64,000 bases of DNA from Psychrobium sp. MM17-31 (GTDB lineage Bacteria; Pseudomonadota; Gammaproteobacteria; Enterobacterales; Psychrobiaceae), in NCBI RefSeq assembly GCF_022347785.1, contig NZ_JAKRGA010000003.1:496001-560000 (forward strand), given 5' to 3'. Under the pieces are notes generated by a model. The model was not told where the DNA came from. It ran no database searches and worked only from the letters and a program-made list of their open reading frames with translations. Position 1 is the stretch's first letter, and each line of letters begins with the position of its first letter. A program made the position numbers and the translations under genes. Shown in pieces: positions 10,932-41,390 of this stretch.

Positions 10932-10983
10932 CTGACATCAAACTGTCATAAAGGTTCGATATTTTGTGCGAAATATTTATAAT
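10932..10983 (+). promoter_or_regulatory. Promoter of Oar-like receptor 2 with a Pho box
   Basis: Two heptamers in 11-base phase, CTGACAT-CAAA-CTGTCAT (10932-10949), match the PhoB direct-repeat consensus at 13 of 14 heptamer positions. A third, GTTCGAT, follows in phase at 10954. A -35 TTCGAT (10955-10960), 17-base spacer and -10 TATAAT (10978-10983) come next. The Pho box lies farther from the -10 than in classical PhoB promoters, where it replaces the -35, so the regulator's identity is an inference. Confidence 0.65.
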
Positions 10984-11040
10984 TCACTCGTTTATTAAAA
11001 CTCGTAACCGCTAATTTTAGCATTTAGGAAATATTCAAAA

Positions 11041-14000: not shown

Positions 14001-14289
14001 AACGCTTGATCTAAACATTCGTCAAGAGATCCCAGGTTTCACTGAAGATCACAAAGGTTTATTCTACGTTTCTATTAAGAACCTAGCGAACCTATTAAAC
14101 GACGATTGGGGTCAGGTATACCGCATGCGCTTCCCACAACAAGCGCTATGGGATCTACGCGGTGTTAACGATGAAGGTCAATACCAATACGGTGAGCGCT
14201 TCCGTGGTACAGATGTTCGTAACTACAACGAATTCTACCCAGAAGCTTCTACATGGCGTATTAAAATGGGTGTTCGTTACTCATTCTAA
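11041..14289 (+). CDS. Oar-like TonB-dependent receptor with carboxypeptidase-regulatory domain (paralogue 2)
   Basis: A 1082-residue outer-membrane receptor with the same order as its upstream paralogue: signal peptide ending at STAAFA (residue 26), carboxypeptidase-regulatory-like domain (about 30-120), plug (about 135-250, with NAVTKSG) and a barrel ending in GVRYSF. The first 120 residues and the segment PKFNSITVDGIGQNDDFGLN are close to paralogue 1. The plug lacks the two cysteines seen there. Synonymous codon use is strikingly uniform (GGT, CGT, AAC, TAC, GAA), more biased than in the neighbours, which suggests very high expression. The ATG at 11041 is followed by AAATAAATTACTTAAAAA-type A-rich codons. 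The substrate is unknown. Confidence 0.92.
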   Translation: MNKLLKKTAAASAVAAALSLSTAAFANDTSSGIRGKIVGPEGNVAANTKITVIHTPSGSVKETVTNENGIYSLKGLRVGGPYMIVVDSDVFQDKTEEGVVLNLGEVYRLNMQLSPVGQAAETISVTGSYVGFDSTGGSSSYGTEDIARAPAFNRDLKDLVRNNPLAVVDSDGALSIGGQNPKFNSITVDGIGQNDDFGLNSGGYPTQSSPISLDAVEQISVNTSPFNTKVGGFSGGVVNAVTKSGTNEFKGTVFYEFQNDSLAGDPKLNRVVNRNGDNETFELGEESTWGATFSGPLIEDKLHFFVNYEQFKKTEPAAFGLGEGSNKSDVTQEQYDRFLSIIDKEYGLTDELAGDPENKDKKAIFKLDWNINDDHRADFTYQWQDNSSDRNHSDRADELVLKSNTYTLNTVNNNFAAHLYSNWSDDFSTEITLSHKNTEINSLTNSDIGQVNVNGVGYIREDEDAGIEGVSGSTIVFGTDAFRHANVAETKTLKFNFDANYLVGDHEINFGYHYERLNNYNLFAESSLGVWTFGSDHDRFGVDGLDRLEAKRPETFNGGGFRYKNAYTNDANDTAYDLTRSTHVLYVEDNWTVNDVLDVTYGLRYERLTTSDAPKLNEGFAKEYGYANTENLDGLDVVLPRFGFKYYLSDEVTIRGGVGRYSGGKPNVWIANSFTNDGITFVELDSDVSSDLVRDPANVDFTRVPQVAQDALVSGTGSTNYVDPNYKMPTDWRFQLGAEIDLDIPYLGEDYKWNVEANYVKQENASFWVDTSRLETGKTTADGQRKIYESRYAGDKSLEDNFDIMLTNADDNGRSVILTTSLQKEWDNGIRMNMSYTHQDITEGNPGTSSRAISNYQYNVALNRNEALVGTSNFEIEHRFVLNLGYKTQFVDGYDTTFDLFFSRRSGRPYTYTLGLYQDDDFGDQTAAYSNTVYQVYLPSGADDPNVDFENSRLTYDEMKAIMDEAGLSKYAGGYAPKNSHTQPWTTTLDLNIRQEIPGFTEDHKGLFYVSIKNLANLLNDDWGQVYRMRFPQQALWDLRGVNDEGQYQYGERFRGTDVRNYNEFYPEASTWRIKMGVRYSF

Positions 14290-14311
14290 TATCAGCTAAT
14301 GTAATCTAATA

Positions 14312-14341
14312 AAATACCAACCTTCGGGTTGGTATTTTTTT
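14312..14341 (+). terminator. Rho-independent terminator of receptor 2
   Basis: The stem AAATACCAACC / GGTTGGTATTT has an extra-stable TTCG tetraloop and is followed by a run of T. It lies 22 bases after the stop codon. Confidence 0.93.
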
Positions 14342-14449
14342 GTCTATGGAAAAACATTTGTTAAGGAAATCACACTCTAAATGCAGGATAAGTTTATCAA
14401 TTCTCGCTACTGCCGTATGATAGTGTGACTTTCATCTATCGAGATAATT

Positions 14450-15649
14450 ATGCGCAAGATTCTCATTAGTACAGCGGTTGCTCTATCGCTTATTGGTTGT
14501 AATAGCCAGCCACAACACTCCCGAAACCCAAAAGATTCAACAGTAAAAATAGCGTCGTTTAACGTCAGTATGGACGCGACCAATTACGTTGGCCGCGATG
14601 CAAAGCGGGCGACTAACAAAGTACTTTTAACTGAGCTTAAAAATGGTAATCAGCAAATTAAAAATATCGCTGAAATAATTCAGCGTACTCGCCCTGATAT
14701 CATTCTGTTAAACGAATTTGATTACATCACCGATCCCAAGCAAGGCGTTGAGCGCTTTATCAAAGAATACTTAAATGTTGCGCAGCACAGTGATGTTAGC
14801 GCCATTGACTACCCTTATTACTACTATTCCACCGTCAATACCGGCAAACCAAGCCCTTATGATTTAACGGGTGATGGTAAAGCGACAGGCACGCAAGGCG
14901 ATGCTTGGGGTTTCGGTTTTTTTGAAGGCCAATACGGCATGGTATTACTATCGAAATACCCTATCGATAAAACCAATGTCCGCACCTTCCAGCACTTTAA
15001 ATGGAAAGACATGCCAGGCGCTATGCGCCCTATTGTGCCAAGTACCGGAAAATCATTTTATAGTGACGCAGCGTGGAATGAGTTTCCGTTATCGTCTAAG
15101 TCGCATTGGGATGTACCAGTCACGGTCAATGGACAAACTATCCACGTGTTAGCATCACACCCAACACCACCTGTTTTCGATGGTCCAGAAGATAGAAATG
15201 GCAAAAAGAATCACGATGAAGTGCGCTTTTGGCATGACTATCTGACGCCTAACAAGGCCGACTACATTTATGACGATAACGGTGTATTTGGCGGCATTGC
15301 TGCAAACGCCCGCTTTGTTGTCATGGGTGATCAAAACTCATCATCAACTGAAGGTAATTCGCGTAAAGAAGCCATTGGAGCCTTACTTTCAAGCCCGCTG
15401 ACCAATGACGTATCAATACCAATGAGTCGTGGTGGTGATTTACATAAAACCGACAACAAGCTCTCTAAACATCATACTGCTTATTGGGGAATGCGCGCCG
15501 ACTACGTGCTGCCATCAACCTATGGTTGGGACGTTATTGATAATGGGGTGTTCTGGCCTCATACCGATAGCGAGCTATACCGTTTGGTGAAAGATCGCAA
15601 TGCATCGTCAGATCACCGCTTAGTGTGGTCTACACTAAAGCTAAAATAA
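14450..15649 (+). CDS. Endonuclease/exonuclease/phosphatase-fold lipoprotein
   Basis: A 399-residue member of the EEP (DNase I-like) superfamily. A lipoprotein signal ends at Cys17 (lipobox LIGC), so it is exported and lipid-anchored. EEP landmarks appear in order: SFNVS (36-40), a metal-binding Glu in LLNEFD, the HPTPP segment, GDQNSS, and the C-terminal SDHRLV with the catalytic His. Metal-dependent hydrolysis of phosphodiesters or phosphomonoesters, such as nucleic acid, sugar phosphate or phospholipid head group, is the family activity; the substrate is not evident. It follows two receptors with Pho-box-like promoters, so a role in scavenging phosphate from organic matter is plausible but inferred. 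It has its own intergenic space and no clear Pho box. Confidence 0.85.
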   Translation: MRKILISTAVALSLIGCNSQPQHSRNPKDSTVKIASFNVSMDATNYVGRDAKRATNKVLLTELKNGNQQIKNIAEIIQRTRPDIILLNEFDYITDPKQGVERFIKEYLNVAQHSDVSAIDYPYYYYSTVNTGKPSPYDLTGDGKATGTQGDAWGFGFFEGQYGMVLLSKYPIDKTNVRTFQHFKWKDMPGAMRPIVPSTGKSFYSDAAWNEFPLSSKSHWDVPVTVNGQTIHVLASHPTPPVFDGPEDRNGKKNHDEVRFWHDYLTPNKADYIYDDNGVFGGIAANARFVVMGDQNSSSTEGNSRKEAIGALLSSPLTNDVSIPMSRGGDLHKTDNKLSKHHTAYWGMRADYVLPSTYGWDVIDNGVFWPHTDSELYRLVKDRNASSDHRLVWSTLKLK

Positions 15650-28304: not shown

Positions 28305-30977
28305 TTAAAATTTGTAACTCAACTGGATGCTGTACTTAGAACCCGGCTCTTTGGCGTATACCTCGATGCCTTGTTGTTCGTAAGTTGTTTGCTCATCGAG
28401 TAGGTTTTTCGCTTTAAACGAAATAGACATATCCTCAACTGGATAATACTTGTAAGTAAAATCCAAACTGTGGAATGGCTGTTCGTAAACGTCATCTAAG
28501 CCGCCACGACCACCGTAAGCGACGCGGTCGCCAAACACGTTGTATACCAAGGTTGCGTTATGAGCTTCGTCTTTTGAATCGAAACTAATTTGGAAGTTAG
28601 TTACCCATTCAGAATGTCCAGTCATACGGCGCTTGGTATTAGTTGGGTCGATTTCGCCACTTTGTGCAATTTCAATTTCCGAATCACTTAGCGTCACGTT
28701 GGCGGCAATAAAGAATTGCTGCCAAATACTTTTCGCATCACCTAAAAACGCTAGGCCTTGTAGTGCTTCAGCTTCAATACCATAAATAAAGCCAGAGTTA
28801 GCGTTATAGAACTTAAGCTGACGCCCTGCTTCACTGATCCGTTGGATTGGCTCGATTGGCGCATCGATGTCTTTATAGAACGCACCGATTGAGTAGTTAT
28901 CACCTGTTTCGCTGTAATATTCCCAGCGCGCATCTAGGTTGTAAATTGCCGAACTCTTAAGCTCTGGATTACCAAAGAAGTCAAAACCTGTCACCGGATC
29001 TTGGAAGCGAACTGGCGATACTTCACGTAAATCTGGACGCACCATAGTTTTACTCAGTGCAACACGCCATTGGCTTAAATCGTCTTCTTTGTATGTCATA
29101 GAAAGCGATGGGAAGAAACCGTCTTCCTGCACGATGTAATCGCTAATTTCATAACGACCGCCTTCATCTGAGATATTACCATCTGGCTCAAGTGGCAATG
29201 TCACGCGGCGGAAATCTTCATAACGCAGGCCAGCGTAGAAAATTAGCTCGTCGTCAAAATCAAGCTCAGCAGAGATATAAACTGCATCGTTTTGCTCAGC
29301 GGCGATGTAATCTTCGGTGTCAGTTGACGCATCTTTTAGTTCAACATCTAGCACGTTGCTATTAATGTTCTCATCACTAAAGATGTCACTAAATTCCTTG
29401 CTTAAAATGTCACCATTGGCATCAGTCGGACGCAGACCAACATCTAAACCAAGACGCGTGGCGTAACTCGTACGGGAGCGCTCGACAAATTGATAACCCG
29501 CTTTAAACGTAACAACTGTCGTATCAAATGCCACTGGTAAACCAAGATCAAAACCGAAGTTTTCCATGTCGTCATCAAGCTGACTGTAGACATATTTCGG
29601 CGCATCTTGGGTATTAAGATGACGGCTAGTGATGGCATTCGCATCGTCAAGTACCACGTTGTAAGTGTAAGAAAGTTCACTTGGTGCGCGGCGCGATGAT
29701 TTCGAGTCGCTGTATTGCCACTTTAACTCTAGCTCCCACCAATCTTCGAAATAGTGAGTCCCTTTTAGCTGATTACTAAGTAGTGTACGCTGCTGAAAAT
29801 CAATGTCGTAAACTTGCAGCGCATTAGGCTCGCCCAAGGTATCGATAGTTTCTTCGATTGCTACAGATACATCGTCTGAACTATCGCTTAGGTAAGTGGT
29901 AAAACTCTCAATCTTGTGGTTGTCATCAAGCTCAAAGCCCATGTTAAACATGGCTGAGAATTTAACCTTAGTATCAGTGCCTTTTACGCGCTTGTCGTTT
30001 TCGACTTGCGTTTGGTTGGCATCACCATCAAGCTCGATGTCTGTTTTTTCATAATTGCTTTGCTCATTTTTATAAGCAAATGCCGCCACGACACCTAATA
30101 AACCTTCGTCACCGATATCCCAGTTAGTACCAAAAGCAAGATTGCCATTTAATGGCTGGTCGGTGCTTTCAGTCGTCACATTCATATCGCGATGTAAATC
30201 AAGCGCAAGATCTCGGTTAAGCTTTGCAGCATCGGCAAAGTTAATGCTGCCGTTACTGCCTGTAATGATATCAATTGGGCTTAAACCGCCATATTGATTT
30301 GTGGTATTGGTAATAGCGCTGGCTAGTGCGCGCGTGCCATCGTCTTTACCTTTCCATTCATCACCGCCACCGTTATAACTAAAGGCATCGTTGCTATCGT
30401 TGGTGTTAAATGACGTACCAATTGACAGTTTCACAAAAGGCTCTACTGGCGTTGATAAGGTGCGAATATCTACATGACCGCCACCAAAAGCGGCAGGTCT
30501 GTCTGCTGACGCACTTTTTTGTACCGATAACGATTCAATAATTGATGCTGGGAACATATCCAGCGGCACAACGTTACGGGTTGGATCTGGCGATGGCACT
30601 ACAGCGCTATTTAGCGAGGTGCTTGAGTAACGCTCACCTAAACCGCGTACGTAAATAAACTTGCCGTCTTTAAGCGTTAAACCTGTAACACGGCGTAGCG
30701 CTGCCGCAGCACTTGAGTCGCCCGTGCGTGATAATTGTTCTAGACCTAAAATATCCCCTACTTGCACTTGCTCGCGGCGCTCTTCCGTCGCAGCAGAAGC
30801 CGAAGTACGTAAACGTCCGGTAATTTGAATGCGCTCTACTGGGAAATATTCAGGGTCTTTTTCTTTTTGAGTGTTCGCCGTATTAACAGTGTTAGCGCTA
30901 GCAACGCCGCTGAGTAACACTGCACTAGCCACAGCTAAGCTAAGTTTGTTTAATGTAAATAATGGCGTGGTTTTCAT
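28305..30977 (-). CDS. TonB-dependent receptor, partner of the duplicated lipoprotein
   Basis: An 890-residue outer-membrane receptor. Signal peptide ends near VASA (residue 28); the plug domain (about 60-175) has SAAAALRRVTGLTL, the conserved YVRGLGERYSS block and the DMFPASIIESLSVQKSASADRPAAFGGG segment; the barrel ends in YSIQLSYKF with the terminal Phe needed for BAM recognition. An AAGG sequence precedes the ATG. It follows the large lipoprotein gene on the same strand, 115 bases apart and separated by two hairpins, so it probably belongs to the same PhoB-controlled unit. Receptor-plus-surface-lipoprotein pairs often import a large ligand; this ligand is unknown. Confidence 0.9.
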   Translation of the reverse strand: MKTTPLFTLNKLSLAVASAVLLSGVASANTVNTANTQKEKDPEYFPVERIQITGRLRTSASAATEERREQVQVGDILGLEQLSRTGDSSAAAALRRVTGLTLKDGKFIYVRGLGERYSSTSLNSAVVPSPDPTRNVVPLDMFPASIIESLSVQKSASADRPAAFGGGHVDIRTLSTPVEPFVKLSIGTSFNTNDSNDAFSYNGGGDEWKGKDDGTRALASAITNTTNQYGGLSPIDIITGSNGSINFADAAKLNRDLALDLHRDMNVTTESTDQPLNGNLAFGTNWDIGDEGLLGVVAAFAYKNEQSNYEKTDIELDGDANQTQVENDKRVKGTDTKVKFSAMFNMGFELDDNHKIESFTTYLSDSSDDVSVAIEETIDTLGEPNALQVYDIDFQQRTLLSNQLKGTHYFEDWWELELKWQYSDSKSSRRAPSELSYTYNVVLDDANAITSRHLNTQDAPKYVYSQLDDDMENFGFDLGLPVAFDTTVVTFKAGYQFVERSRTSYATRLGLDVGLRPTDANGDILSKEFSDIFSDENINSNVLDVELKDASTDTEDYIAAEQNDAVYISAELDFDDELIFYAGLRYEDFRRVTLPLEPDGNISDEGGRYEISDYIVQEDGFFPSLSMTYKEDDLSQWRVALSKTMVRPDLREVSPVRFQDPVTGFDFFGNPELKSSAIYNLDARWEYYSETGDNYSIGAFYKDIDAPIEPIQRISEAGRQLKFYNANSGFIYGIEAEALQGLAFLGDAKSIWQQFFIAANVTLSDSEIEIAQSGEIDPTNTKRRMTGHSEWVTNFQISFDSKDEAHNATLVYNVFGDRVAYGGRGGLDDVYEQPFHSLDFTYKYYPVEDMSISFKAKNLLDEQTTYEQQGIEVYAKEPGSKYSIQLSYKF

Positions 30978-31030
30978 ACCTTGGTGTCCTGTCTTGAAAA
31001 CACATTGAAAATAGAAATCGATTCAACAAA

Positions 31031-31081
31031 GCCGTGGCTAGCACGGCATTGAAACGCCTTAGCACCGTGTAGGTGCTAAGG
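31031..31081 (-). other. Tandem intercistronic hairpins between lipoprotein and receptor genes
   Basis: In transcript order, the perfect 10-bp stem CCTTAGCACC/GGTGCTAAGG (31081-31057) is followed by GCCGTG/CACGGC (31047-31031). Neither has a long U tract. They may be a partial terminator or an RNA-stability element that sets the lipoprotein to receptor ratio. Confidence 0.7.
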
Positions 31082-31092
31082 GCTTGGTTGGA

Positions 31093-33936
31093 TTACTGAG
31101 CGATGAAAACCCAGCCTTTAGTCCAGTCATTGGTTGCATCGAATGCACCGATGAAATCAGTTGAGATAAAGAAGCTATCTACCGTGCTCATGTCTTTACC
31201 TTTACCAAGTAACACAGTGTCACCCGCTGCTGGCATACCGTTTGTTAGATTTACTGCTGCTGCCGCGTTGCCCGCTTGACCTTCAAACCATGTTTGAACG
31301 TTAACCGCATCTGTTGTCGCTGCATTTTCAGAGCTGTATTTGAATGGTTCGTTACAATCAATCACTGAGTGCTCGATAGTTAATTCGCCGTCGTTAACGT
31401 TAGTAACTAAGTCAGCGTAAGTACCGTCTAGCTCTAAACACTCACCCGATTCAGTCGCTGACGTATCGCCTTTACGACCTTGCACTAAGATGTTGTTAAG
31501 TGATGCAGCTGTAGCAACGCGAAGTAAGATACCTTCACCTTTGTCGCCGCTTGCGTTTTCAACATCAACACCAGGTAGGATGGTTACGTTAGAAATCACT
31601 GGCTTAGATACTGGCGTGTCACCGTCACCTTTGTGGCTATCGCCTTCGAAACCGCGATTTGCGCTGCCGTCTTCATGCGTGATGTAAACGAATTGTGCCT
31701 TACCTGTCCAACCGTTAGTCCAGTCTAGGCTGTCATCGAAGTTGTCTGATAGGTAAACATATTTCAGGTTTACAGCGCCGCCCCAGAACTCAACACCGTC
31801 ATCGCCATTAGCGTGAACTTGAATGTGGTCAACTTGTGTGCCGCTTCCTACTGCTGCAAACGAAATACCGTTCATTTCTTGTGTATCATTCACTTTAAAG
31901 CCAGCGTATTTCACAACCACATAACTCAATTGACCGCTGTTATCCGTGTTGTCGTTACCGCCGTATTTGTGGTCCCCTACTTCAAATGACACATCACAGT
32001 TAGTGTGATCATCACATTTGTTCGTTAAACCATTACCCAGTAGTACTAAACCGCCCCACTGACCACGCTCACCAGATGCGCCGTTAATCACGTCTTGTTG
32101 TGATGTCATGGTAATTGGGTGCTCTTGGGTACCCATCGCCATGATTTTTGAGCCACGGCTTACCGCAATGTAACTCTCATCAGTTGCAAATAATTGCGTA
32201 CCCGCTTGAATAGATAACGTTGCAGAGTTGATGTTATCGCCACCAACAATCACCGCACCGCCGTCAATTTTGTACATCACGTTTTTACCCGCTAATAGCG
32301 TTGTGTTAGATGTGATGTTGCCAGAGACGCTACATACAAGGTTTACGTTGCTGTCTTTGTAGATACCCGCTGTTACAGCCTCGCTCGTAGTGCCTACCGG
32401 ACAAGATGTTAATGTTGGTAATTCAGCTGGCGCAGGAGCCGTGCTAACCGCCGTCGTCCAGCCTGTTGTCCAATCGTTAGTGCCGTCGAATGCACCGATG
32501 TAGTCAGCATCTTTTAAGCGCGCATCTTCAGCGGCTAGGTCGTTATTTCCGCCTGTTAGCGCGATAGAGCTCGCGTTTGGCATGTAACCGTTTAGATCTG
32601 ATGCGCCAACTAGGTTGCCGTCTTGACCTTCATACCAATCTTTAACATCAAGGCTTAAAGTGCGGCCTTTTTCTGCGTCAACTTTGGCATCTTTAAACGG
32701 CTCAACACAATCGATTAAGCTGTTTTCAATCGTTAGGTTGCCATCATTTACACTAGTTACCGTGTTGTCGTCGTTAACTTCTAAACACTCGCCAGACGCT
32801 GCGCCGCCTTTGATTAGTGTATTGAAGATGTGTGCACCTGTACCTTTGCGAAGTAAGATACCTTCGGCATCATCACCACCGCTGTTGGTGCCATCGGCAA
32901 CTTCAATAGTTACGTTAGCAATTGCCGGCATAGATTGTGGTGTTGCTGACGCATCACTATTGCTATCTGCTTCAATACCGCGGTTTGAACCATTATCCGC
33001 TTGGCGAATGTAAACGTGCTGCGCGCTACCTTGCCAGCCGTTAGTCCAATCTAGACTGTCGTCGAAGTTTTCAGTAAGCACCACATTTGATACTGATACG
33101 TTACCGCCCCAGAACTCGATGCCGTCATCGTTGTTCATGTGAACTTGTAAGTGGTCAACTGTGGTACCAGAACCAACACCGCCGAAGCTCACGCCGTTCA
33201 TTTCTTGGGTGTCATTGATTTTGAAACCGCCAAACTCAACGCGAACATATTTTAATGTACCTGAGCTATCTTCTTTGTCGTTACCGCCGTAGTTGTGATT
33301 ACCTACTTCAAAAGCTGCATCACATGCTGCTAAATCAGGACAAGTATTTACTGGCGCGTTACCAAGTAATACTAAACCGCCCCATTGACCACCAGCGCCA
33401 GCTTGACCTAGTGCGCTTTCTTTTGATGTGAAGACGATTGGATTTGCTTGAGTACCCTGAGCGTTAATCTCTGAGCTACGGCTTACTACTAAGTAAGAGC
33501 CATCGGCGCCAACTACTTTGGTACCTGCGCGAACTTCAAGCGTGACTGAATTTTCTTTGTCGCCACCCGCAACAACTGCGCCTTCAAGTTCCCAGACAAC
33601 ATCGTTACCTAGAACGATAGTTGAGCCATTTTGGCCACCGGTGTCGCCTGTACCAATTGTTGAATCGCCAGTTGCTGGTGCTAGTGTACCTTTAAGCGTC
33701 CACACTTCTTTGCCATCAATTGAGATGCTGGTATTGCGAGTTGCAAAACCGCTATATGCGAGCTGTTGTGCAGATTGCGTTGGCGTTGGTGTAGGAGTTG
33801 TTGGGGTTGGTGCAGGTGTTGTCGTTTGATCTTTGGTATCTATATTAATATCACCACCACAACCAGCAAGTGCAAGCGCCGTTGCTAAAGCGCCTAACTT
33901 AAACATTCTTTTAATTTGGACAGTTTGAATTTGCAT
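31093..33936 (-). CDS. Large lipoprotein with two tandem beta-helix-like repeats
   Basis: A 947-residue protein. A lipoprotein signal ends at Cys26 (LALAGC), followed by a Thr/Pro linker, then two copies of a roughly 440-residue unit (about 55-495 and 505-945). Each copy contains matching blocks such as GGQWGGLVLLGN, NDTQEMNGVSF, DDGIEFWGG, NFDDSLDWTNGW, and IGAFDxTNDW near its end. Short repeated beta strands with Asn/Asp ladders suggest a right-handed parallel beta helix. Paired cysteines recur in both halves. The function is unknown; a surface-exposed ligand-binding or hydrolytic partner of the downstream TonB receptor is inferred. The ATG at 33936 has GGAG six bases upstream. A GTG at 33981 is rejected. 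The promoter contains a Pho box. Confidence 0.85.
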   Translation of the reverse strand: MQIQTVQIKRMFKLGALATALALAGCGGDINIDTKDQTTTPAPTPTTPTPTPTQSAQQLAYSGFATRNTSISIDGKEVWTLKGTLAPATGDSTIGTGDTGGQNGSTIVLGNDVVWELEGAVVAGGDKENSVTLEVRAGTKVVGADGSYLVVSRSSEINAQGTQANPIVFTSKESALGQAGAGGQWGGLVLLGNAPVNTCPDLAACDAAFEVGNHNYGGNDKEDSSGTLKYVRVEFGGFKINDTQEMNGVSFGGVGSGTTVDHLQVHMNNDDGIEFWGGNVSVSNVVLTENFDDSLDWTNGWQGSAQHVYIRQADNGSNRGIEADSNSDASATPQSMPAIANVTIEVADGTNSGGDDAEGILLRKGTGAHIFNTLIKGGAASGECLEVNDDNTVTSVNDGNLTIENSLIDCVEPFKDAKVDAEKGRTLSLDVKDWYEGQDGNLVGASDLNGYMPNASSIALTGGNNDLAAEDARLKDADYIGAFDGTNDWTTGWTTAVSTAPAPAELPTLTSCPVGTTSEAVTAGIYKDSNVNLVCSVSGNITSNTTLLAGKNVMYKIDGGAVIVGGDNINSATLSIQAGTQLFATDESYIAVSRGSKIMAMGTQEHPITMTSQQDVINGASGERGQWGGLVLLGNGLTNKCDDHTNCDVSFEVGDHKYGGNDNTDNSGQLSYVVVKYAGFKVNDTQEMNGISFAAVGSGTQVDHIQVHANGDDGVEFWGGAVNLKYVYLSDNFDDSLDWTNGWTGKAQFVYITHEDGSANRGFEGDSHKGDGDTPVSKPVISNVTILPGVDVENASGDKGEGILLRVATAASLNNILVQGRKGDTSATESGECLELDGTYADLVTNVNDGELTIEHSVIDCNEPFKYSSENAATTDAVNVQTWFEGQAGNAAAAVNLTNGMPAAGDTVLLGKGKDMSTVDSFFISTDFIGAFDATNDWTKGWVFIAQ

Positions 33937-34044
33937 TGTCTTCTCCGAGGACGAATATAAGTAGTTCGAATTAAGTTGCACAGGAATCTAATGCGCAAAG
34001 ATGACAGTAAGAAGACACAAAATTTTCAGTAATATGTGGTTTTT

Positions 34045-34062
34045 ATGACGCCAATATGACAG
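34045..34062 (-). promoter_or_regulatory. Pho box for the large lipoprotein/receptor operon
   Basis: Minus strand CTGTCAT-ATTG-GCGTCAT: two PhoB heptamers in 11-base phase (first 7/7, second 5/7). A -10-like TATTAC follows 10 bases downstream, the spacing of classical PhoB promoters in which the box replaces the -35. The lipoprotein start is about 110 bases away. Confidence 0.75.
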
Positions 34063-34122
34063 GCACGGCAGGCTTCACTTTGCGGATATATTCGACAAAT
34101 TTGCTCGTGAAGATTTTTTGAA

Positions 34123-34140
34123 TTGTCATCATATTGTCAT
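34123..34140 (+). promoter_or_regulatory. Pho box for the small divergent lipoprotein
   Basis: Plus strand TTGTCAT-CATA-TTGTCAT: two identical heptamers, each 6/7 to CTGTCAT, in 11-base phase, with a -10-like GATAAA about 11 bases downstream (34152-34157). It points toward the TTG start at 34246. With the minus-strand box 60 bases away it makes a divergent pair. Confidence 0.8.
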
Positions 34141-34245
34141 GAAGTTTTCGCGATAAATCCCTGAACTTTTAGGCATAAGCAATTGTCACATAGCGGTATT
34201 TTTTCAATAAGAAACCACTTATTCAGTCTCGAAAAGGAGTATCCT

Positions 34246-34530
34246 TTGTACAAAGCACTATCAATTTTATCACTCGTTCTCTTATTACCCGCCTGTGAAA
34301 TGACACAGCCTGAGCCGTATCAAAAAGACAGAAAGCCAGAGCACCGTACTGAATATAACGGCGCAGAAGGATTAGCACAGGCGCAAAAGGACAAAGTTTA
34401 TTTAATGAACAAAGAACTAGCGGATAAATGTGAACAAGCCAGAACGGCGCTGATCGTGGCACAAGAGAATAACGACACTGCAGATATCAAGCGTCAAAAC
34501 AGTATTATTAAAGATACCTGCGTTAATTAA
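34246..34530 (+). CDS. Small lipoprotein, divergent partner of the Pho module
   Basis: A 94-residue protein read from a TTG start at 34246, chosen because AAGGAG sits six bases upstream and the frame then opens directly with a lipoprotein signal (YKALSILSLVLLLPAC, Cys17). The mature part is short, charged and probably helical (AEGLAQAQKDKVYLMNKELADKCEQ), with two further cysteines. No function is recognised. It is transcribed away from the large lipoprotein from its own Pho box and ends in a strong terminator shared with the alkaline phosphatase gene. A longer reading from 34183 lacks a ribosome-binding site and would mask the signal peptide. Confidence 0.75.
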   Translation: MYKALSILSLVLLLPACEMTQPEPYQKDRKPEHRTEYNGAEGLAQAQKDKVYLMNKELADKCEQARTALIVAQENNDTADIKRQNSIIKDTCVN

Positions 34531-34582: not shown

Positions 34583-36163
34583 TTAGCGGGATGTAGAAAT
34601 TGCAGCATTCATCGCATCAAACACCGTTGTGTTATCAACGTAATTGCCATTCCATTGATAGGGCTTGCCCCACAATTTACGCGCCTTGAGATCAGTGCGA
34701 GTGAACTGCTCAAAATATTCACTACCCGCACCAATCGCCCACAACGGGACTAACTCATTCGTGTGATTACCTGATGCAAATTGATAACCCGGCATATTAC
34801 CTGCGCCATGGTCTTGCACTGCAATAAAGTCATTAAAGGTATCTTGCTGTGGATTAAATCGCGCAGACGCAATAGCAGCTTTACTGCGATCTGCTGCGAC
34901 CCCGCCGCCTTGATGGTTGGTCCATGTTCCCTGTCCCCAAATACCACCACATTCGTGATCAGAGGTAATGATTAACAAGGTATCATCCCAACTCGAATTT
35001 TTCTCTACCCAATCAATCACCGACGCCACCGCTTGATTAAAGGCCATATGCTCTTCAATAAAGCGTGGCATGTCATTGGCGTGCCCCATCCAGTCGACGG
35101 CGCCGCCTTCAATCATTAAGAAGAAGCCACTATCTTTTTGCGCCAACACATTAAGTGCGCCCTGACTCATGGTCGCTAATGTCGGAACATCTTGGTTATA
35201 CGCCATTCCCGACGGTGTATTCGCTGATGATAATCCTTCGCGTGATGCTTGCAGGGTTGAGCCAGAGCGAGCAATACCCACCACACGCAGTGGCAAATGA
35301 TCACCGTTAGCTAATGCCTTAAAACTTGCCTTGTCATCAATATAACGAAAGCCGTTGGCGTTGTTTTGCTGGGTTAAGCTGCGATAGGTTTGTTCACCGC
35401 CGAGATATTTATAACTGCGTTTGTCATCACTCACCAAAGCATCACTGCCGTTATAAAGCGGATGCCCAGCGCCCATTAACACACTTAAATCACTTTGAAC
35501 CATCTCGTTAAAAATATCGGCGTAATTATTACGGCTAGCATTGTGAGCAATGGCCGCCGCTGGCGTAGCATGAGAAATCATCACCGATGTTACGACACCG
35601 GCTGAGCGACCGCTCTCCATCGCTAACTGAGCAATAGTTTTAAACGAGTTCTGACCTGTCCAATCTTTATTAATGCGACCAACAGAGGTTTTGCGACCAC
35701 TCATTAACGCAGTCCCCGCAGCGGCGCTATCTGTGTATGAGGTGTAACTTTTAGCGACAGGATCAAAGTCATTAAGCATCGCATTTTCGAACTTATTCCA
35801 ACGGGTATTTGGGTTATACCCTTGCTCGATAGCACCGGCAGCCAGTGAAACATCAGAGTTTCTCGCCAGAGGTTTACCATCCTTATCAATCAGATTAAGC
35901 GCACTGTGCGATAATCCGTAGACCCTCGGCATAGTGCCATCAGGCCTAACAACTTGATACGCCTGCTTTCCCGCAAGACCTTGATAATAATCAGTTGCCA
36001 GCCAGCCGTTAAAACCGATGCCGTCTGATACCATCAAGATGACATTCTTCGGTGATTTTTTGATTGCTGCGGGTGAGTCAGGTGTTGACTGGAGCGTAGT
36101 ACAAGCGCCGAGCACAATTGCACTCACACAACCAGCTATCGCCAATGATTTACGTAACCTCAT
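34583..36163 (-). CDS. Alkaline phosphatase (PhoA family), lipoprotein
   Basis: A 526-residue exported phosphomonoesterase. A lipoprotein signal ends at Cys21 (LGAC). PhoA-superfamily elements in order are the metal Asp in VSDGIG, nucleophile Ser146 in TDSAAAGTA, the H-A-T-P segment, the EGGAVDWMGH metal cluster, the SDHECGG Asp-His pair and the last His in GNHTNELVPLW. It releases phosphate from organic esters in the periplasm or at the surface. It lies beside the Pho-box module and is convergent with the small lipoprotein, but I find no convincing Pho box in its own 219-base upstream region, which it shares with the radical SAM gene. Confidence 0.93.
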   Translation of the reverse strand: MRLRKSLAIAGCVSAIVLGACTTLQSTPDSPAAIKKSPKNVILMVSDGIGFNGWLATDYYQGLAGKQAYQVVRPDGTMPRVYGLSHSALNLIDKDGKPLARNSDVSLAAGAIEQGYNPNTRWNKFENAMLNDFDPVAKSYTSYTDSAAAGTALMSGRKTSVGRINKDWTGQNSFKTIAQLAMESGRSAGVVTSVMISHATPAAAIAHNASRNNYADIFNEMVQSDLSVLMGAGHPLYNGSDALVSDDKRSYKYLGGEQTYRSLTQQNNANGFRYIDDKASFKALANGDHLPLRVVGIARSGSTLQASREGLSSANTPSGMAYNQDVPTLATMSQGALNVLAQKDSGFFLMIEGGAVDWMGHANDMPRFIEEHMAFNQAVASVIDWVEKNSSWDDTLLIITSDHECGGIWGQGTWTNHQGGGVAADRSKAAIASARFNPQQDTFNDFIAVQDHGAGNMPGYQFASGNHTNELVPLWAIGAGSEYFEQFTRTDLKARKLWGKPYQWNGNYVDNTTVFDAMNAAISTSR

Positions 36164-36382
36164 AGGAGTTTCCTTTACGGTTTAAATAAAGATGCGTATT
36201 TGATGCATCGTCACAAAACCCAATAATGATACATTATAACATTACAGTAAATAGCAATTGTCTTGTATTTTCGAGAGATGTACGGCTTTGTGCGCAAATT
36301 CAAATGACTCCCAGTTTGTTGTCACACAGAACTGCTGTATCATTAGCCGCAGATAAACTCACGAAATTTAACGCCCTAACGC

Positions 36383-37984
36383 ATGCAACCATCTTCGATT
36401 CAACTTGACTTAAAACACATCGATCCAAAAGCCACTAAGTCCTCTGCAAAGCCTATATTTGCTGGTGACACCAGCGATTCGATTGTCTTATCCACCATCA
36501 ATGCCAAATACATTCACGCTAGTCTCGGTTTGCGCTACCTTTATGCCAACTTGAACGAGTTGCAGGCGCAGTGTGAAATTCAAGAGTTTGTGATCCAAAC
36601 TCGCCCGATTGATATCGTCGAAAAAATCTTAGCGGCTAAACCGCGGATTGTTGGTTTTGGGGTATACATTTGGAATATCGTTGAAACCACTAATGTGGTG
36701 AGTTTGCTTAAAGTCATTGCCCCAGAAATTACTATTGTGCTGGGCGGCCCTGAGGTGAGTTATGAATCACAAGGCCAACCTATTGTTGAAACGGCAGATT
36801 ACGTGCTAACTGGCCCTGCCGATAACAGTTTCTATCAGCTGTGTCGTGATATTCTTGATGACAACGCGCCCGAGCAAAAGATTTTGCAGTCTAAGCCCGT
36901 GCAACTCAATGATTTAGCAATGCCGTATGAATATTACAGCGATGACGATATTAAGAATCGTCTCCTTTATGTTGAAGCATCACGCGGTTGTCCATTTAAA
37001 TGTGAGTTTTGTTTATCATCGCTCGATACTTCATCGAATCCGTTCGAGCTAGAGAGCTTTCTCGGTGAAATGGAAACTCTATACCAACGCGGCGCACGTA
37101 ATTTTAAGTTCATCGATCGCACCTTTAACCTCAATATAAAAACCACCATGCAAATTATGCAGTTCTTCCTCGATAAAATGAGTGATGACTTGTTTTTACA
37201 TTTTGAAGTAGTGCCAGATCATCTACCCCGTAAACTCAAAGAAATGCTCACCCTATTTCCACCGGGTAGTTTGCAATTTGAAGTTGGTATTCAATCGTTT
37301 AATGTTGAAGTACAAGCCAACATTAACCGTAAACAGAACAACCCTAAATCGAAAGAAAATCTATTGTGGCTCCGTGAAAACACCCACGCTCATATTCACG
37401 CCGATTTAATCTTTGGCTTACCGGGCGAAACCTTTGAAACCTTTAGAGAGAGCTTTAACGAGCTTTACAAATGTCGCCCTCACGAGATCCAGCTTGGTAT
37501 TTTAAAGCGTCTTAAAGGCAGCCCTATTATTAGGCATACCGAAGCCTTTGATTTACGGTTTAATCCGCTGCCACCATTTAACATTTTGAGTACTGACCGC
37601 GTCGACTTTGCCACCATGCAACTGGTGAATCGTTTTGCCCGTTATTGGGATATGTTGGCGAACTCAGGCCGCTTTAAGAATGCGATGCCAGTGCTATTAG
37701 ACGACAATCCGTTTGATAATTTCTTCGCTATCGCCGATTGGATATTCGAACAAACAGGACAAACTCATCAAATCAATCTCAAGCGATTATTTGAAATGCT
37801 ATCGCAAGCAACGCAATCATTGTTTAGCGACAAACATGAAGCACTGCTAGCAGAGCTAGAAAAGGATCACGCCGCGTCGAAACTCAAAGGACAATTTAAC
37901 CAATTGAATCTTTATTTAGGGCAAGAAAAAGGCGCTGCAACAACGAATAAGTTGATGCAACGCCAACAGCAGCATATGAGCTAA
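36383..37984 (+). CDS. B12-binding-domain radical SAM protein (DUF4080 type)
   Basis: A 533-residue cytoplasmic enzyme. The N-terminal cobalamin-binding-like Rossmann domain (about 30-165) has VGFGVYIWN and VLGGPEVSYE. The radical SAM barrel has the 4Fe-4S cysteines in CPFKCEFC (Cys203, 207, 210) and GLPGE later. A C-terminal DUF4080-like region follows. Relatives without assigned substrates are common; methyltransfer or another radical reaction on an unknown target is the family expectation. Oddly, its last 20 codons overlap a hairpin repeat (37931-37964) that also occurs at 41514. Confidence 0.88.
   Translation: MQPSSIQLDLKHIDPKATKSSAKPIFAGDTSDSIVLSTINAKYIHASLGLRYLYANLNELQAQCEIQEFVIQTRPIDIVEKILAAKPRIVGFGVYIWNIVETTNVVSLLKVIAPEITIVLGGPEVSYESQGQPIVETADYVLTGPADNSFYQLCRDILDDNAPEQKILQSKPVQLNDLAMPYEYYSDDDIKNRLLYVEASRGCPFKCEFCLSSLDTSSNPFELESFLGEMETLYQRGARNFKFIDRTFNLNIKTTMQIMQFFLDKMSDDLFLHFEVVPDHLPRKLKEMLTLFPPGSLQFEVGIQSFNVEVQANINRKQNNPKSKENLLWLRENTHAHIHADLIFGLPGETFETFRESFNELYKCRPHEIQLGILKRLKGSPIIRHTEAFDLRFNPLPPFNILSTDRVDFATMQLVNRFARYWDMLANSGRFKNAMPVLLDDNPFDNFFAIADWIFEQTGQTHQINLKRLFEMLSQATQSLFSDKHEALLAELEKDHAASKLKGQFNQLNLYLGQEKGAATTNKLMQRQQQHMS
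37931..37964 (-). repeat. Palindromic repeat copy 1, inside the radical SAM 3' end
   Basis: A 34-base hairpin with arms beginning GGCGCTGCAACAAC and ending GTTGATGCAACGCC. It is almost identical to the hairpin at 41514-41547. On the minus strand it is followed by TTTTTC, so it can act as a terminator for the convergent gene at 38045 while encoding the C-terminus of the radical SAM protein. Confidence 0.75.
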
Positions 37985-38044: not shown

Positions 38045-39052
38045 CTAGTTTTTAACCAATAAATATTTATCTAACTCAGCCTGTGTCATTACATGAATAG
38101 ACTCAGCTGGTGCAGCATTGATGGTAAAGAAATAAAAGTCTGGGCCTAACTCGTTACCTAGCATCTCTCTAAAGTACGTTAGCTGTGCACCATGCGCGGG
38201 ATCTGACTTTTTCAGCAAGTGCGCAGATTTTCCATTTTCACAACACCACGCATGTACGCCGACTTTACCGCCTGTTGTATATTCACGTTTGAAACCTGCC
38301 GCAAATAAATCAACGCCGCCAGAGTTCACATCGCCATTTTCACCGATATTCGTCGTTAGCTGCGCCTGTCGAATAAGACGGCCGGTATGCATATTGATGG
38401 CATCGTTAATCGAACCATCAATATTCAGTAAAAATAGTTTTTTAACTTCCGGATTATTCGCGATCATCTCAGAAATCTGGACATAGGTTTTAGTGCCCAA
38501 GGTGCCATTTAATACTGCTTCGGAGCCGCCAATTTCCAGCGTGCTATTACCCGCAGACAAAAACGATTCGTTGATAACTAAGCGAACATTGTGCAATCCG
38601 CCAGTGGATTTATTTTCGACTTGACCGTCATAGACATAATTATCACCTGCTGACGATATTTTAATAGCATCTGTTGCGCTAACTAGCTCCTGAGCGATTG
38701 AAGGGTGACGCACAGAAATGTTTGCGATTGGCGACTCTTTATCCATATCAAACCCAAATGTGACAAAGCCAGCACCTGCGTCATAACGGGCAATGATTGA
38801 CTTTTGCTCTGGGCCAAAATCCCAAAACGTCAACTCATATTTCTTGCCTTCAAACTGAAACTCCACATCAGCGATTTGTTGTTTGTATTTCTCGATATAC
38901 TCTGCAACTTTAGCTGGCGCGATATGGTGAACCACCGCCGTTGATATTTGCTCCGTGGCCTCCTTTTTAGCGTCGCTGCTTGAACTACCACCACAGGCTT
39001 GAATTAAGCCCGATAGCACCAACGCTACCGCAATTTTTTTAGATTTATTCAT
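38045..39052 (-). CDS. ClpP/crotonase-like periplasmic lipoprotein (COG3904-like)
   Basis: A 335-residue exported protein. The lipoprotein signal ends at Cys20 (LIQAC) followed by GGSSSSD. The C-terminal half reads NIDGSINDAINMHTGRLIRQ, then NSGGVDLFAAGFKRE, then GKVGVHAW. This follows the fold signature of COG3904-type ClpP-superfamily proteins (LNSPGG..., SAC..., GVHQ), with Ser of NSGG and His of GVHAW as candidate catalytic residues. The N-terminal 150 residues are unrecognised. It sits between a radical SAM gene and a siderophore receptor. Function is unknown; the assignment is by pattern and moderate. Confidence 0.6.
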   Translation of the reverse strand: MNKSKKIAVALVLSGLIQACGGSSSSDAKKEATEQISTAVVHHIAPAKVAEYIEKYKQQIADVEFQFEGKKYELTFWDFGPEQKSIIARYDAGAGFVTFGFDMDKESPIANISVRHPSIAQELVSATDAIKISSAGDNYVYDGQVENKSTGGLHNVRLVINESFLSAGNSTLEIGGSEAVLNGTLGTKTYVQISEMIANNPEVKKLFLLNIDGSINDAINMHTGRLIRQAQLTTNIGENGDVNSGGVDLFAAGFKREYTTGGKVGVHAWCCENGKSAHLLKKSDPAHGAQLTYFREMLGNELGPDFYFFTINAAPAESIHVMTQAELDKYLLVKN

Positions 39053-39222: not shown

Positions 39223-41346
39223 TTAGAAACTGTACGCTAGCTGCGCCACAACCTCACGTGGTGCACCTGGGAAATGGCCATTGCGCTTGCTAAATCCACT
39301 TACTGCGTATTCCTTATCAAACACGTTGTTAACGTTAATGCTTAATAACACATCATCAAACTGCGTTGTCCAGCTAACATCAAACACCGTGTATGGTTTT
39401 ACACGTTGTTCATCAAAGCTAATTTGCTCACTGACGTAATCAGCGCCAAAGGCAAATGATGAGTCAAACTGCTCGATGTTGTATCTAAACCACAAGCCCG
39501 CTTGGTGCTTTGGTGCATTCACAAATTTATTGCTATCAAGAGAGTTGCGATCAACCCCTTCAACAATTTTGGTATCGTTGTAGGCGTAGTTTGCTGTAAC
39601 ACTTAGGTCTTCGAAAATATCACCAACCACAACAATTTCTGCACCGTCACTTTCTACTAAACCAAAGTTGCGAATAGGCGAAATATTCGGTGTTTCGTCA
39701 CTGTCGATAAAATCAGGGTTCGATTGAACTAGGTTTTCTTTTTCAATTTGATAGAAAGCAATCGTTGTTAAAATACGACCATCGAACCACTCTTTCTTGG
39801 CACCGATTTCTATTTGATTACCCGTTGTAGGTTCGATGCGCCCTAAGCTCTCTTCAAAATCATCGGCACTAACCGGTTTGAAACTTTGCGAGTAGTTAAC
39901 ATAAAGCGAAGTATCAGCCGCTGGCTTATAGGTTAATCCAGCGCGATAGCTTACGTCACTATCGTCATAACTCGTGCTTCCCTTATCGCTGTCGGTTTCT
40001 TCAAATTTATCGAAACGTGCACCTACCATCAGCATCCATTGCTCAGTTAGCTCTACCATATCTTGAACGTACAAACTGCTGCGAGTGCGCTCTAGTCCGT
40101 CACGGTTCATATCTTTGAGTTTATAGGTGCTTGGATCAGTTAGCCCGTAGTTTAAATCAAAGATATTAAGGTTTTTAACGCCGTCTTTTTCATAACGGGC
40201 GCGGAAATAATCGTAGTCGGTTTCAATGTCGTGGAAATCACCACCAAATAAAATCTGATGCTCCATATCCGCCAATGTTGTTTCATAAACAAAATCGACA
40301 GTTAAACTAAGTTCGGTGTTAGCGCGGTATTGATCGCGATATTCACGGCGAATAGTACGGTCATTAATATCCGCTTTGTCATCACCATTCACGTCCACCC
40401 AAGAGCGAGATTCGTGATACGCCTGCTCGCGTTCGTTATCCATATAACGCACAGTAACATTCGACGATAATTGGTCGCTAAAATCGTGCTTGAGATTTGA
40501 CTGCAATACCAAGGCTTTCATGTCTTGAAAATCAAATTTCTCATTGGCGTTATAAGACGGATCAACAAGGAAATTACCATTGTCATCAACTGGTACACCG
40601 CGTAAACGGTTACCACCTAGATTTTGCACTATGTAATCGAAGGTGAAATCTACAGTGGTCGCTTCATCAATGTGATATAGCAGACCACCGGCAACTTCAA
40701 TATTCTCTTGATCGGCGTTGTTTCTAAAACTGTCCTGTGCTTCGTAGAAAGCACCAAAACGATAGGCTAAATCTTCGGTAATGCCATCGGTAATATCAGC
40801 AGAAATACCTTTTAGCGCGAAGTTGCCAAGGGTTAAATTAAGATTCTTCTCAGAAGAGAACTTAGGTTTCTTAGTCACATAGTTAATCATTCCACCCGGC
40901 TCACCGCCGCCATAAATAGCTGCAGCAGGACCTTTTAACACTTCAACGCGCTCAACGTTAAACAGTTGAGGAACGCTAAAACCAGAGAATGGGTCACCGC
41001 GCACACCGTCGTAAAATACATTGCCGTCATCGCGGAAACCACGGAAGGTAACGCCAGAATAACTAAACTCACTCACACCAGCGATTGAGCGATATAAATC
41101 AGTAATATCACGCGCTGCTTGGTCAATAATAAGCTGCTTACTAAGCACCTGTGCCGACAGTGGAATATCGAGTAAATCAGCGTCAACTTTAGTACCAACG
41201 GTGGTTTGCTGATCGAGATAGAAGGTTTGCGCGCGTCCTTTAACTTCAATAACTTCAGTAGCTTCTTGAGATTTTTCAGTTGCAGTAGCGGTATAAGATG
41301 AGGCAAGTGATAGCATCACTGCGCTGTAGATTAAGCTTTTTTTCAT
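39223..41346 (-). CDS. TonB-dependent siderophore receptor
   Basis: A 707-residue outer-membrane receptor of the ferric-siderophore (FhuA/FpvA) type. Signal peptide ends near SSYTATA (residue 23), TonB-box-like EVIEVKG, plug with VTFRGFRDDGN and VLKGPAAAIYGGGEPGG (about 75-150), barrel, and a C-terminal PREVVAQLAYSF with terminal Phe. The ATG at 41346 opens directly into the signal peptide; an upstream TTG at 41382 would bury it. Transcription starts from a promoter overlapped by a Fur box, so iron repression is expected. Substrate siderophore is not identifiable by eye. Confidence 0.93.
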   Translation of the reverse strand: MKKSLIYSAVMLSLASSYTATATEKSQEATEVIEVKGRAQTFYLDQQTTVGTKVDADLLDIPLSAQVLSKQLIIDQAARDITDLYRSIAGVSEFSYSGVTFRGFRDDGNVFYDGVRGDPFSGFSVPQLFNVERVEVLKGPAAAIYGGGEPGGMINYVTKKPKFSSEKNLNLTLGNFALKGISADITDGITEDLAYRFGAFYEAQDSFRNNADQENIEVAGGLLYHIDEATTVDFTFDYIVQNLGGNRLRGVPVDDNGNFLVDPSYNANEKFDFQDMKALVLQSNLKHDFSDQLSSNVTVRYMDNEREQAYHESRSWVDVNGDDKADINDRTIRREYRDQYRANTELSLTVDFVYETTLADMEHQILFGGDFHDIETDYDYFRARYEKDGVKNLNIFDLNYGLTDPSTYKLKDMNRDGLERTRSSLYVQDMVELTEQWMLMVGARFDKFEETDSDKGSTSYDDSDVSYRAGLTYKPAADTSLYVNYSQSFKPVSADDFEESLGRIEPTTGNQIEIGAKKEWFDGRILTTIAFYQIEKENLVQSNPDFIDSDETPNISPIRNFGLVESDGAEIVVVGDIFEDLSVTANYAYNDTKIVEGVDRNSLDSNKFVNAPKHQAGLWFRYNIEQFDSSFAFGADYVSEQISFDEQRVKPYTVFDVSWTTQFDDVLLSINVNNVFDKEYAVSGFSKRNGHFPGAPREVVAQLAYSF

Positions 41347-41390
41347 GAGATTCAAATGTGCTTTGATAAATAAATTCAACAAGGACGCAA

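Follow-up and report, generated by a model that had tools for sequence, protein, structure and literature searches.

A 64,000-nucleotide stretch of the Psychrobium sp. MM17-31 genome (contig NZ_JAKRGA010000003.1, positions 496,001 to 560,000; referred to here as the window) contains two adjacent minus-strand genes, coding for a large lipoprotein and a TonB-dependent receptor, that are likely to form a PhoB-controlled, two-gene outer-membrane system for phosphate acquisition. Judging from the promoter sequence, Pho control of this pair is almost certain; phosphate acquisition is very likely to be its role, and TonB-driven import of its ligand is probable. As to the nature of that ligand, there is about an even chance that it is mainly inorganic phosphate, with an organic phosphate as a weaker, possible candidate. 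The features on which this reading builds were computed: the promoter array, the order of the genes, the duplication and predicted fold class of the lipoprotein, the conserved pairing, and the linkage, in some relatives, to phoBR, pst, or phoU, to TonB-ExbBD, and to type II secretion genes. An initial annotation, made from the DNA letters alone, had described the region as a Pho-box-controlled module of three genes, the third encoding a divergent small lipoprotein, and had suggested that it imports an organic phosphate under phosphate starvation. The pair and its control region consist of the following features.

28305 to 30977, minus strand: TonB-dependent receptor of 890 amino acids, second gene of the pair (Pfam Plug, 31.4 bits)
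31093 to 33936, minus strand: large lipoprotein of 947 amino acids, ElpS/FI-FII-like, with lipobox LAGC (Cys26) and two predicted tandem beta-helix domains
33937 to 34245, no strand: intergenic control region of 309 bases with three two-slot Pho boxes
33990 to 33985, minus strand: -10-like hexamer TAGATT, 10 nucleotides downstream of the proximal box
34001 to 34018, minus strand: proximal Pho box, 2 mismatches, overlooked in the initial annotation
34001 to 34062, minus strand: array of six PhoB-like half-sites in an 11-bp register (CTGTCAT, GCGTCAT, ACCACAT, CTGAAAA, GTGTCTT, CTGTCAT)
34034 to 34029, minus strand: -10-like hexamer TATTAC, 10 nucleotides after the distal box
34045 to 34062, minus strand: distal Pho box, 2 mismatches, named in the initial annotation
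34123 to 34140, plus strand: divergent Pho box TTGTCATCATATTGTCAT, 2 mismatches
34152 to 34157, plus strand: -10-like hexamer GATAAA, 11 nucleotides after the divergent box

Both divergent Pho boxes that had been annotated were recovered in place with 2 mismatches each, together with the -10-like hexamers 10 to 11 bases downstream of them; the third box and the array go beyond what had been claimed. Single boxes, scored by their mismatches to CTGTCATN4CTGTCAT, were uninformative here, since they were barely more common than expected: at ≤3 mismatches, the window yielded 8 matches versus 5.4 expected (equaled by 22 of 100 shuffles), and at ≤2 mismatches, the whole genome yielded 22 versus 18 for the reversed pattern. 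Three of those 22 boxes sit in this one intergenic region. When two-slot sites were ranked by half-site score, the 309-nucleotide region held three of the four sites in the whole window that scored at least 12, a number matched by 0 of 1,000 dinucleotide shuffles of the region. The proximal and distal boxes proved to be the two ends of a single six-slot array with strong ends and weaker inner half-sites, its six heptamers succeeding one another every 11 bases exactly when the minus strand is read from 34062 to 34001. With a score of 31.0, this array is the best site in the window (next independent site, 24.0), and none of 100 dinucleotide shuffles of the 64 kb attained a score of 31 (mean, 24.8; largest, 29). 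The genome encodes PhoB (364.6 bits, above the cut-off) and PstS, and its own pstS and phoB genes are preceded by four and three half-sites, respectively, in the same 11-bp register; these arrays, which were ranked within 11-kb stretches rather than by shuffling, are shorter than that of the pair, the pstS array being the top four-slot site in its stretch. Escherichia coli Pho promoters (pstS, phoA) consist of direct CTGTCAT half-sites in an 11-bp register, with the -10 element about 10 nucleotides downstream; the promoter described here shares both the 11-bp direct half-sites and the -10 spacing and differs in having six slots, of which the inner ones are weaker.

The array was also sought upstream of the orthologous genes in 28 close loci, from Shewanella, Parashewanella, and unclassified relatives. 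Including the window, it was called in 25 of the 29 promoters (no more than 3 of 300 shuffles scoring equally well), and a period of 11 bp was best in 27 of the 29. The TGTCAT half of the proximal box is the best conserved core among the relatives, most of which carry a TTAG- or TTAA-like segment about 7 to 10 bases downstream of it; the distal box is also present in L009 (3 mismatches) and recognizable in L010. An anchored profile took in 25 of the 29 promoters, its search expression having missed those of the window, L009, L010, and L023, and the period and array test was repeated without the anchor on all 29. In the promoters of the anchored profile, the array departs somewhat from regularity, the slot adjoining the proximal half-site having a better fit at a distance of 8 bases than of 11 (mean, 4.6 versus 2.6 of 7). 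Outside the close relatives, an array upstream of the lipoprotein gene was found in another family of the order as well (for example, in L067, L122, L124, L125, L126, and L137).

The two genes of the pair lie on the same strand, with 115 bases between the lipoprotein gene and the receptor gene downstream. For the lipoprotein, the start codon is ATG at 33936, preceded by GGAGAAGACA, and not GTG at 33981 as the initial annotation implied; relatives use the corresponding start with GGAGA. The leader directly 5' of this start codon (33934 to 33955) is strongly conserved, reading TCCGTCTTCGGAGATGACAATG in most relatives, and this conservation seems to exceed the apparent needs of a ribosome-binding site. 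The lipobox LAGC with Cys26 was unchanged across 12 large-lipoprotein sequences. That the protein is duplicated, as had been noted before, was borne out by the alignment of its halves, which are homologous and identical at 206 of 399 aligned positions (52%). The receptor scored 207 bits against TIGR01782 (TonB-Xanth-Caul), under the curated cut-off of 310, and so does not qualify for that model.

In all 28 close loci, the receptor gene follows the lipoprotein gene, and these two are the sole families common to all 29 loci. The next neighbor family is present in at most 9 of the 29, and the pair therefore stays together while its surroundings change. A weak TonB-like match (54 to 61 bits) was obtained in four of the close loci; GspC, GspD, and GspE were found neither in them nor in the window. 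One congener (L090) carries an extra gene (11101 to 14205) directly upstream of that for the large lipoprotein; its 1,034-amino-acid product has weak similarity to the latter (28% over 263 amino acids) and no Pfam or NCBIfam match.

By profile searches, members of the lipoprotein family, some single and some double, turned up in 20 of the 274 genomes screened from the class and in 52 of 348 from the phylum, with this genome counted among them. From these, 62 wider regions from 58 genomes were drawn in three batches (20, 2 of 6, and 40), with 39 fetched of the 49 further genomes that had a lipoprotein match in the phylum search. Four congener regions (L087 to L090) were left out of the 62, as the lengths of their contigs match those of L010, L024, L009, and L014, and L136, with a contig as long as that of L035, is probably also among the 28 close loci. 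As controls, we used 40 regions with round coordinates, hand-picked from 30 of the 58 genomes (third batch only). Because the regions share ancestry and some of the genomes are close to one another, the counts given below are not independent.

A receptor of the pair's type was present in 56 of the 62 wider regions, in all 56 on the same strand as the lipoprotein gene, and within 1 kb of it in 51; no control region held one. In five regions (L073, L075, L077, L083, and L133), it lies 2.2 to 6.8 kb off, and two of the remaining regions are truncated: L069 was scored as a miss though a receptor fragment stands at its contig end, and L079 is cut beside the lipoprotein gene. TonB and ExbD were found together in 21 of the 62 regions versus 0 of the 40 controls (one of which had a lone TonB match), and GspD and GspE in 13 versus 0. 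Eleven of the 13 gsp regions are ordered lipoprotein-receptor-gsp on one strand; six have a single-domain lipoprotein of about 49 to 53 kDa, and seven have a double one. PhoB, PstS, PstA/C, PstB, or PhoU genes are neighbors in 11 of the 62 regions versus 0 of the 40 controls. The gene order phoB-phoR-pstS-lipoprotein-receptor, on one strand, is present in L128, L129, L130, and L131 and continues with DUF3450-ExbB-ExbB-ExbD-TonB in the last three of these (gene domains were checked for L128, and PstS of L129 is above the TIGR02136 cut-off). L075 has the order ExbD-TonB-TPR-receptor-unknown protein of 361 amino acids-PstS-lipoprotein-PstC-PstA-PstB, and L077 is arranged likewise; in L079, PhoU-PstB-PstA-PstC-PstS adjoins the lipoprotein gene, and in L073, GspC, GspD, and GspE stand beside lipoprotein-PstS-360-amino-acid protein-receptor. 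This protein of about 360 amino acids between receptor and PstS (L075, 9068 to 10153; L077, 12195 to 13280; L073, 9579 to 10661) has no Pfam match in L075 or L073. A further observation concerns family members that lack a receptor in the stretch read (L072, L074, L076, L079, and L081), which are second copies in three genomes; several of them start with a non-lipoprotein N terminus, and L079 ends at a contig end.

The suggestion that the large lipoprotein is beta-helix-like was supported at the level of a predicted structure. Because the model of the whole protein was poor (predicted template modeling score [pTM], 0.49), with a Foldseek top match to a PL6 lyase at an E value of 6.5e-5 but a template modeling (TM) score of 0.16, the C-terminal half was used for the fold comparison. 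The model of this half (mean predicted local distance difference test score, 68; pTM, 0.69; 90 of 455 residues below 50) is a right-handed beta-helix, with a VIA Z score of 16.9 and a root mean square deviation of 3.8 over 276 residues versus the PL6 alginate lyase 7dmk and a VIA Z score of 15.6 versus the polygalacturonase 2iq7; by Foldseek alone, its matches were weak (best E value, 0.017). A search of the sequences of solved structures with the lipoprotein and the receptor gave no matches. The predicted polysaccharide-lyase-like fold does not show that the protein is an enzyme. Residues invariant in eight divergent domains include D215, D216, E219, D237, D238, D241, and E267 (numbering of the first row), and two conserved acidic clusters, DDGxE and DDxxD, stand out. 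Since D216 and D238 are 22 residues apart, about one turn of a beta-helix, the clusters around them may form an acidic face.

Lipoproteins of this kind have been studied before, and the initial statement that neither lipoprotein has a recognized function is therefore too strong for the large one. In the original report (PMC2996285), to which all statements on this protein refer, ElpS (CC0170) of Caulobacter crescentus is described as a lipoprotein of the cell surface, about 50 kDa in size, that is made at phosphate starvation, and its gene adjoins both a TonB receptor gene, cc0171, and type II secretion genes. Its release, but not its sorting to the surface, needs type II secretion, and its authors mention relatives in Shewanella and Bacteroides as well as co-occurrence with cc0171. 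FI and FII of Flavobacterium johnsoniae (PUSIII and PUSIV; PMC8115612) are strongly induced by phosphate depletion and stand beside TonB transporters, FII within a phoBR cluster; they share 31 to 36% identity with the Caulobacter lipoprotein at 50 to 54% coverage and structurally resemble polygalacturonase. We further note that a 2024 study of the Caulobacter PhoB regulon lists PstSCAB together with type II secretion and various TonB receptors (PMC11208175) and that phytate was proposed, in a survey of marine TonB transporters, as the substrate of one receptor adjoining a phytase (PMC3400609). In the open-license PMC literature, no paper on the Shewanella-type pair was found beyond the remark in the ElpS report.

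The pair described here is like ElpS/CC0171 in that a lipoprotein with an LAGC lipobox is encoded directly beside a TonB receptor, and the published lipoprotein-receptor-gsp arrangement recurs, by profile search, in the 11 wider regions mentioned above. It differs in that ElpS, by its size, has one domain, whereas the window lipoprotein consists of two fused domains, and in having no type II secretion genes next to it: in this genome, gspD matches lie on contigs C4 (the best, at C4:6793, with 543.8 bits), C6, and C2, whereas the window is on C3. We take such adjacency, which is described for Caulobacter but does not come up in the passages on Flavobacterium, to be the Caulobacter arrangement and not a defining property of the ElpS/FI-FII kind. 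As this genome carries a gspD and two DUF3450 genes, none of them beside the pair, it may have both a type II secretion apparatus and a TonB system of the linked type. With FI and FII, compared by their published description, the pair has in common a lipoprotein beside a TonB transporter, predicted here to be made at phosphate starvation, and a polygalacturonase-like fold, although they belong to another phylum and the gammaproteobacterial relatives are linked through phoB-phoR-pstS. A sequence relation to CC0170 or Fjoh_0546 is presumed from the BLAST statement of the ElpS authors and from the ElpS-like lipoprotein-receptor-gsp loci that the profile search found. Most likely, the pair works like and belongs with the ElpS/FII kind, with its lipoprotein doubled; induction by phosphate starvation and surface location would be expected by analogy, from the literature on relatives. 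The initial comparison with SusCD (or PusCD) holds in principle, a TonB receptor and a lipoprotein forming one gene pair. SusD, however, has a helical-repeat fold rather than a beta-helix, and membership was rejected: the lipoprotein has no match to a SusD family of Pfam or NCBIfam, and the receptor none to a SusC model.

On this basis, we propose the following pathway. At low phosphate, phosphorylated PhoB would bind the six half-sites between 34001 and 34062 and thereby activate transcription of the lipoprotein and receptor genes, probably as one transcript. The lipoprotein would be anchored in the outer membrane, probably facing outward, where the acidic face of each beta-helix domain (DDGxE and DDxxD) might capture a phosphate-bearing ligand, perhaps via a divalent metal. 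It would then hand this ligand to the adjoining receptor, which would import it with energy from TonB-ExbBD, and phosphate reaching the periplasm, as such or freed by phosphatases, would pass to PstS-PstCAB. In its most specific form, which we put forward tentatively, the pair would be a TonB-energized importer of inorganic phosphate (or metal-phosphate), with the lipoprotein concentrating phosphate, the receptor pumping it against the gradient, and PstS taking it over directly. It is conceivable that the receptor, lipoprotein, PstS, and ABC transporter encoded side by side in some relatives constitute one trans-envelope line. In the textbook view, phosphate passes the outer membrane passively, via porins; the recurrence of the pair in phoBR-pstS and pst gene runs points instead to active outer-membrane uptake of phosphate or a phosphate compound. 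When ElpS (2010) and FI/FII (2020) were described, their function was left unclear; the neighborhoods reported here offer a concrete, testable pathway along with many candidate genomes in which to test it.

Several observations weigh against a PhoB-controlled importer. No tested phosphate, secretion, or ExbD gene neighbors the pair in a close locus (0 of 28), none of the tested Pho or Pst genes occurs in 51 of the 62 wider regions, and phoB and pstS of this genome lie on a contig other than that of the window. Four of the 29 close promoters (L023, L027, L028, and L029) are without a clear array, as are 5 of 15 further gammaproteobacterial promoters directly upstream of the lipoprotein gene (L123, L128, L129, L131, and L138; 58 to 254 of 300 shuffles as good); in L128, L129, and L131, the pair sits behind pstS on the same strand. 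In Caulobacter, moreover, cc0171 was reported to be constitutive and its deletion did not abolish ElpS, while overproduction of ElpS raised alkaline phosphatase activity, a rise that fits a different role (PMC2996285).

The starvation import of an organic phosphate was the function originally suggested. Of that suggestion, phosphate acquisition is supported by the neighbors in the 11 wider regions; an organic ligand is not favored by the neighborhoods. Such a system would import an organic phosphate or a phosphorylated polymer (glycan, nucleotide, or phytate), to be cut by periplasmic phosphatases, and we regard it as possible, if doubtful. In its favor, the best structural matches of the beta-helix act on polysaccharides, an alkaline phosphatase gene adjoins the pair in the window, and organic phosphorus targets were predicted by the Flavobacterium authors for the FI and FII clusters (PMC8115612). 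The phosphate-related neighbors in relatives, however, are Pst, PhoBR, or PhoU, and three phosphatase/nuclease queries (the window alkaline phosphatase, the choice-of-anchor I protein, and the endonuclease/exonuclease/phosphatase family protein) gave no match in the 62 wider regions or the 28 close loci, other phosphatase families not having been searched. Linkage to PhoX, which would speak for an organic ligand, was likewise not found: 38 of the 57 genomes compared have PhoX, and within the limits that short contigs set to this test, every match is more than 9 kb from the lipoprotein gene, the nearest being about 12 kb away (G543). The adjoining phosphatase itself lacks a Pho box and is not conserved as a neighbor of the pair.

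Another option is that the lipoprotein assists extracellular phosphatases, as proposed for ElpS, with the receptor being a sensor or an unrelated, coregulated transporter. In its favor is the effect of ElpS overproduction on phosphatase activity, although ElpS itself was not a phosphatase; deletion of elpS did not lower phosphatase activity, though (PMC2996285), and the constancy of the gene pair (28 of 28 close and 51 of 62 wider loci), with TonB and ExbD nearby in 21 of the latter, is what transport predicts. We consider this option unlikely. Most characterized TonB receptors import metal complexes, and the DDGxE and DDxxD clusters could bind metal, so that a Pho-controlled importer of an iron, calcium, or zinc complex, serving metal-dependent phosphatases during phosphate starvation, might be envisaged. 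The telling neighborhoods contain phosphate genes, however (metal-uptake genes were not searched for), and the matches of the pair's receptor do not include the siderophore-receptor model TIGR01783, which does match another receptor of the window. We consider a metal importer improbable. Finally, the Pho boxes might be chance matches and the pair outside PhoB control, as the near-expected frequency of single boxes would allow. Against this stand the array score unmatched in shuffles of the window, the 11-bp period of nearly all close promoters (27 of 29), and the comparable arrays that precede pstS, phoB, and, in a second family of the order, the lipoprotein gene; we consider chance highly unlikely and retain PhoB-controlled phosphate acquisition by the lipoprotein and receptor as the preferred reading.

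On the other side of the control region, two further genes had been linked to the pair.

34246 to 34530, plus strand: small lipoprotein of 94 amino acids with lipobox LPAC, outside the conserved module
34583 to 36163, minus strand: alkaline phosphatase lipoprotein (PF00245, 157.6 bits), outside the Pho-box unit

The small lipoprotein most likely starts at TTG 34246, behind GGAG, and not at 34183 as first implied. It was found beside the pair in none of the 28 close loci (L010 and L024 cover less than 700 bases upstream) and is confined to this genome among nine genomes of the genus. Across 247 genomes of the order, this one aside, it has two clear relatives and two marginal ones; neither clear relative has a Pho box, their 3.2-kb loci containing no two-slot site that scores more than 10. 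We therefore rejected the three-gene module: the co-occurrence of three genes in relatives, for which the initial annotation had proposed to look, was found for the lipoprotein-receptor pair and not for the small lipoprotein. The alkaline phosphatase is indeed next door, as had been stated, but its upstream region (36164 to 36400) contains no Pho box (best two-slot score, 9.5, on the other strand) and none of the 28 close loci has it beside the pair, which led us to reject it as a member of the unit. Two further alkaline phosphatases are encoded in this genome. As for the plus-strand box, it is kept in L009 (5537 to 5554) as TTGTCATAATTCTGTCAT followed by GATAAA, without the small lipoprotein behind it; the next plus-strand gene there encodes a radical SAM protein, whose counterpart in the window contains a B12-binding domain.

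Elsewhere in the window, a 335-amino-acid lipoprotein (38045 to 39052) without a Pfam or NCBIfam match adjoins a siderophore-type TonB receptor (39223 to 41382; TIGR01783, 304.7 bits, above the cut-off). On contig C2 of the same genome, a choice-of-anchor I protein (L100, 1867 to 3699) is preceded by a six-slot Pho-like array with a score of 26.0, the best in 7.5 kb, and another lipoprotein-like gene is divergent to it. A strong Pho box with 1 mismatch, CTGACATCAAACTGTCAT (10932 to 10949, plus strand), precedes the gene for a TonB receptor that contains a CarboxypepD_reg domain (11041 to 14289), and next comes a lipoprotein belonging to the endonuclease/exonuclease/phosphatase family (14450 to 15649); the locus from 10932 to 15649 is a possible candidate for the scavenging of phosphate from nucleic acids.

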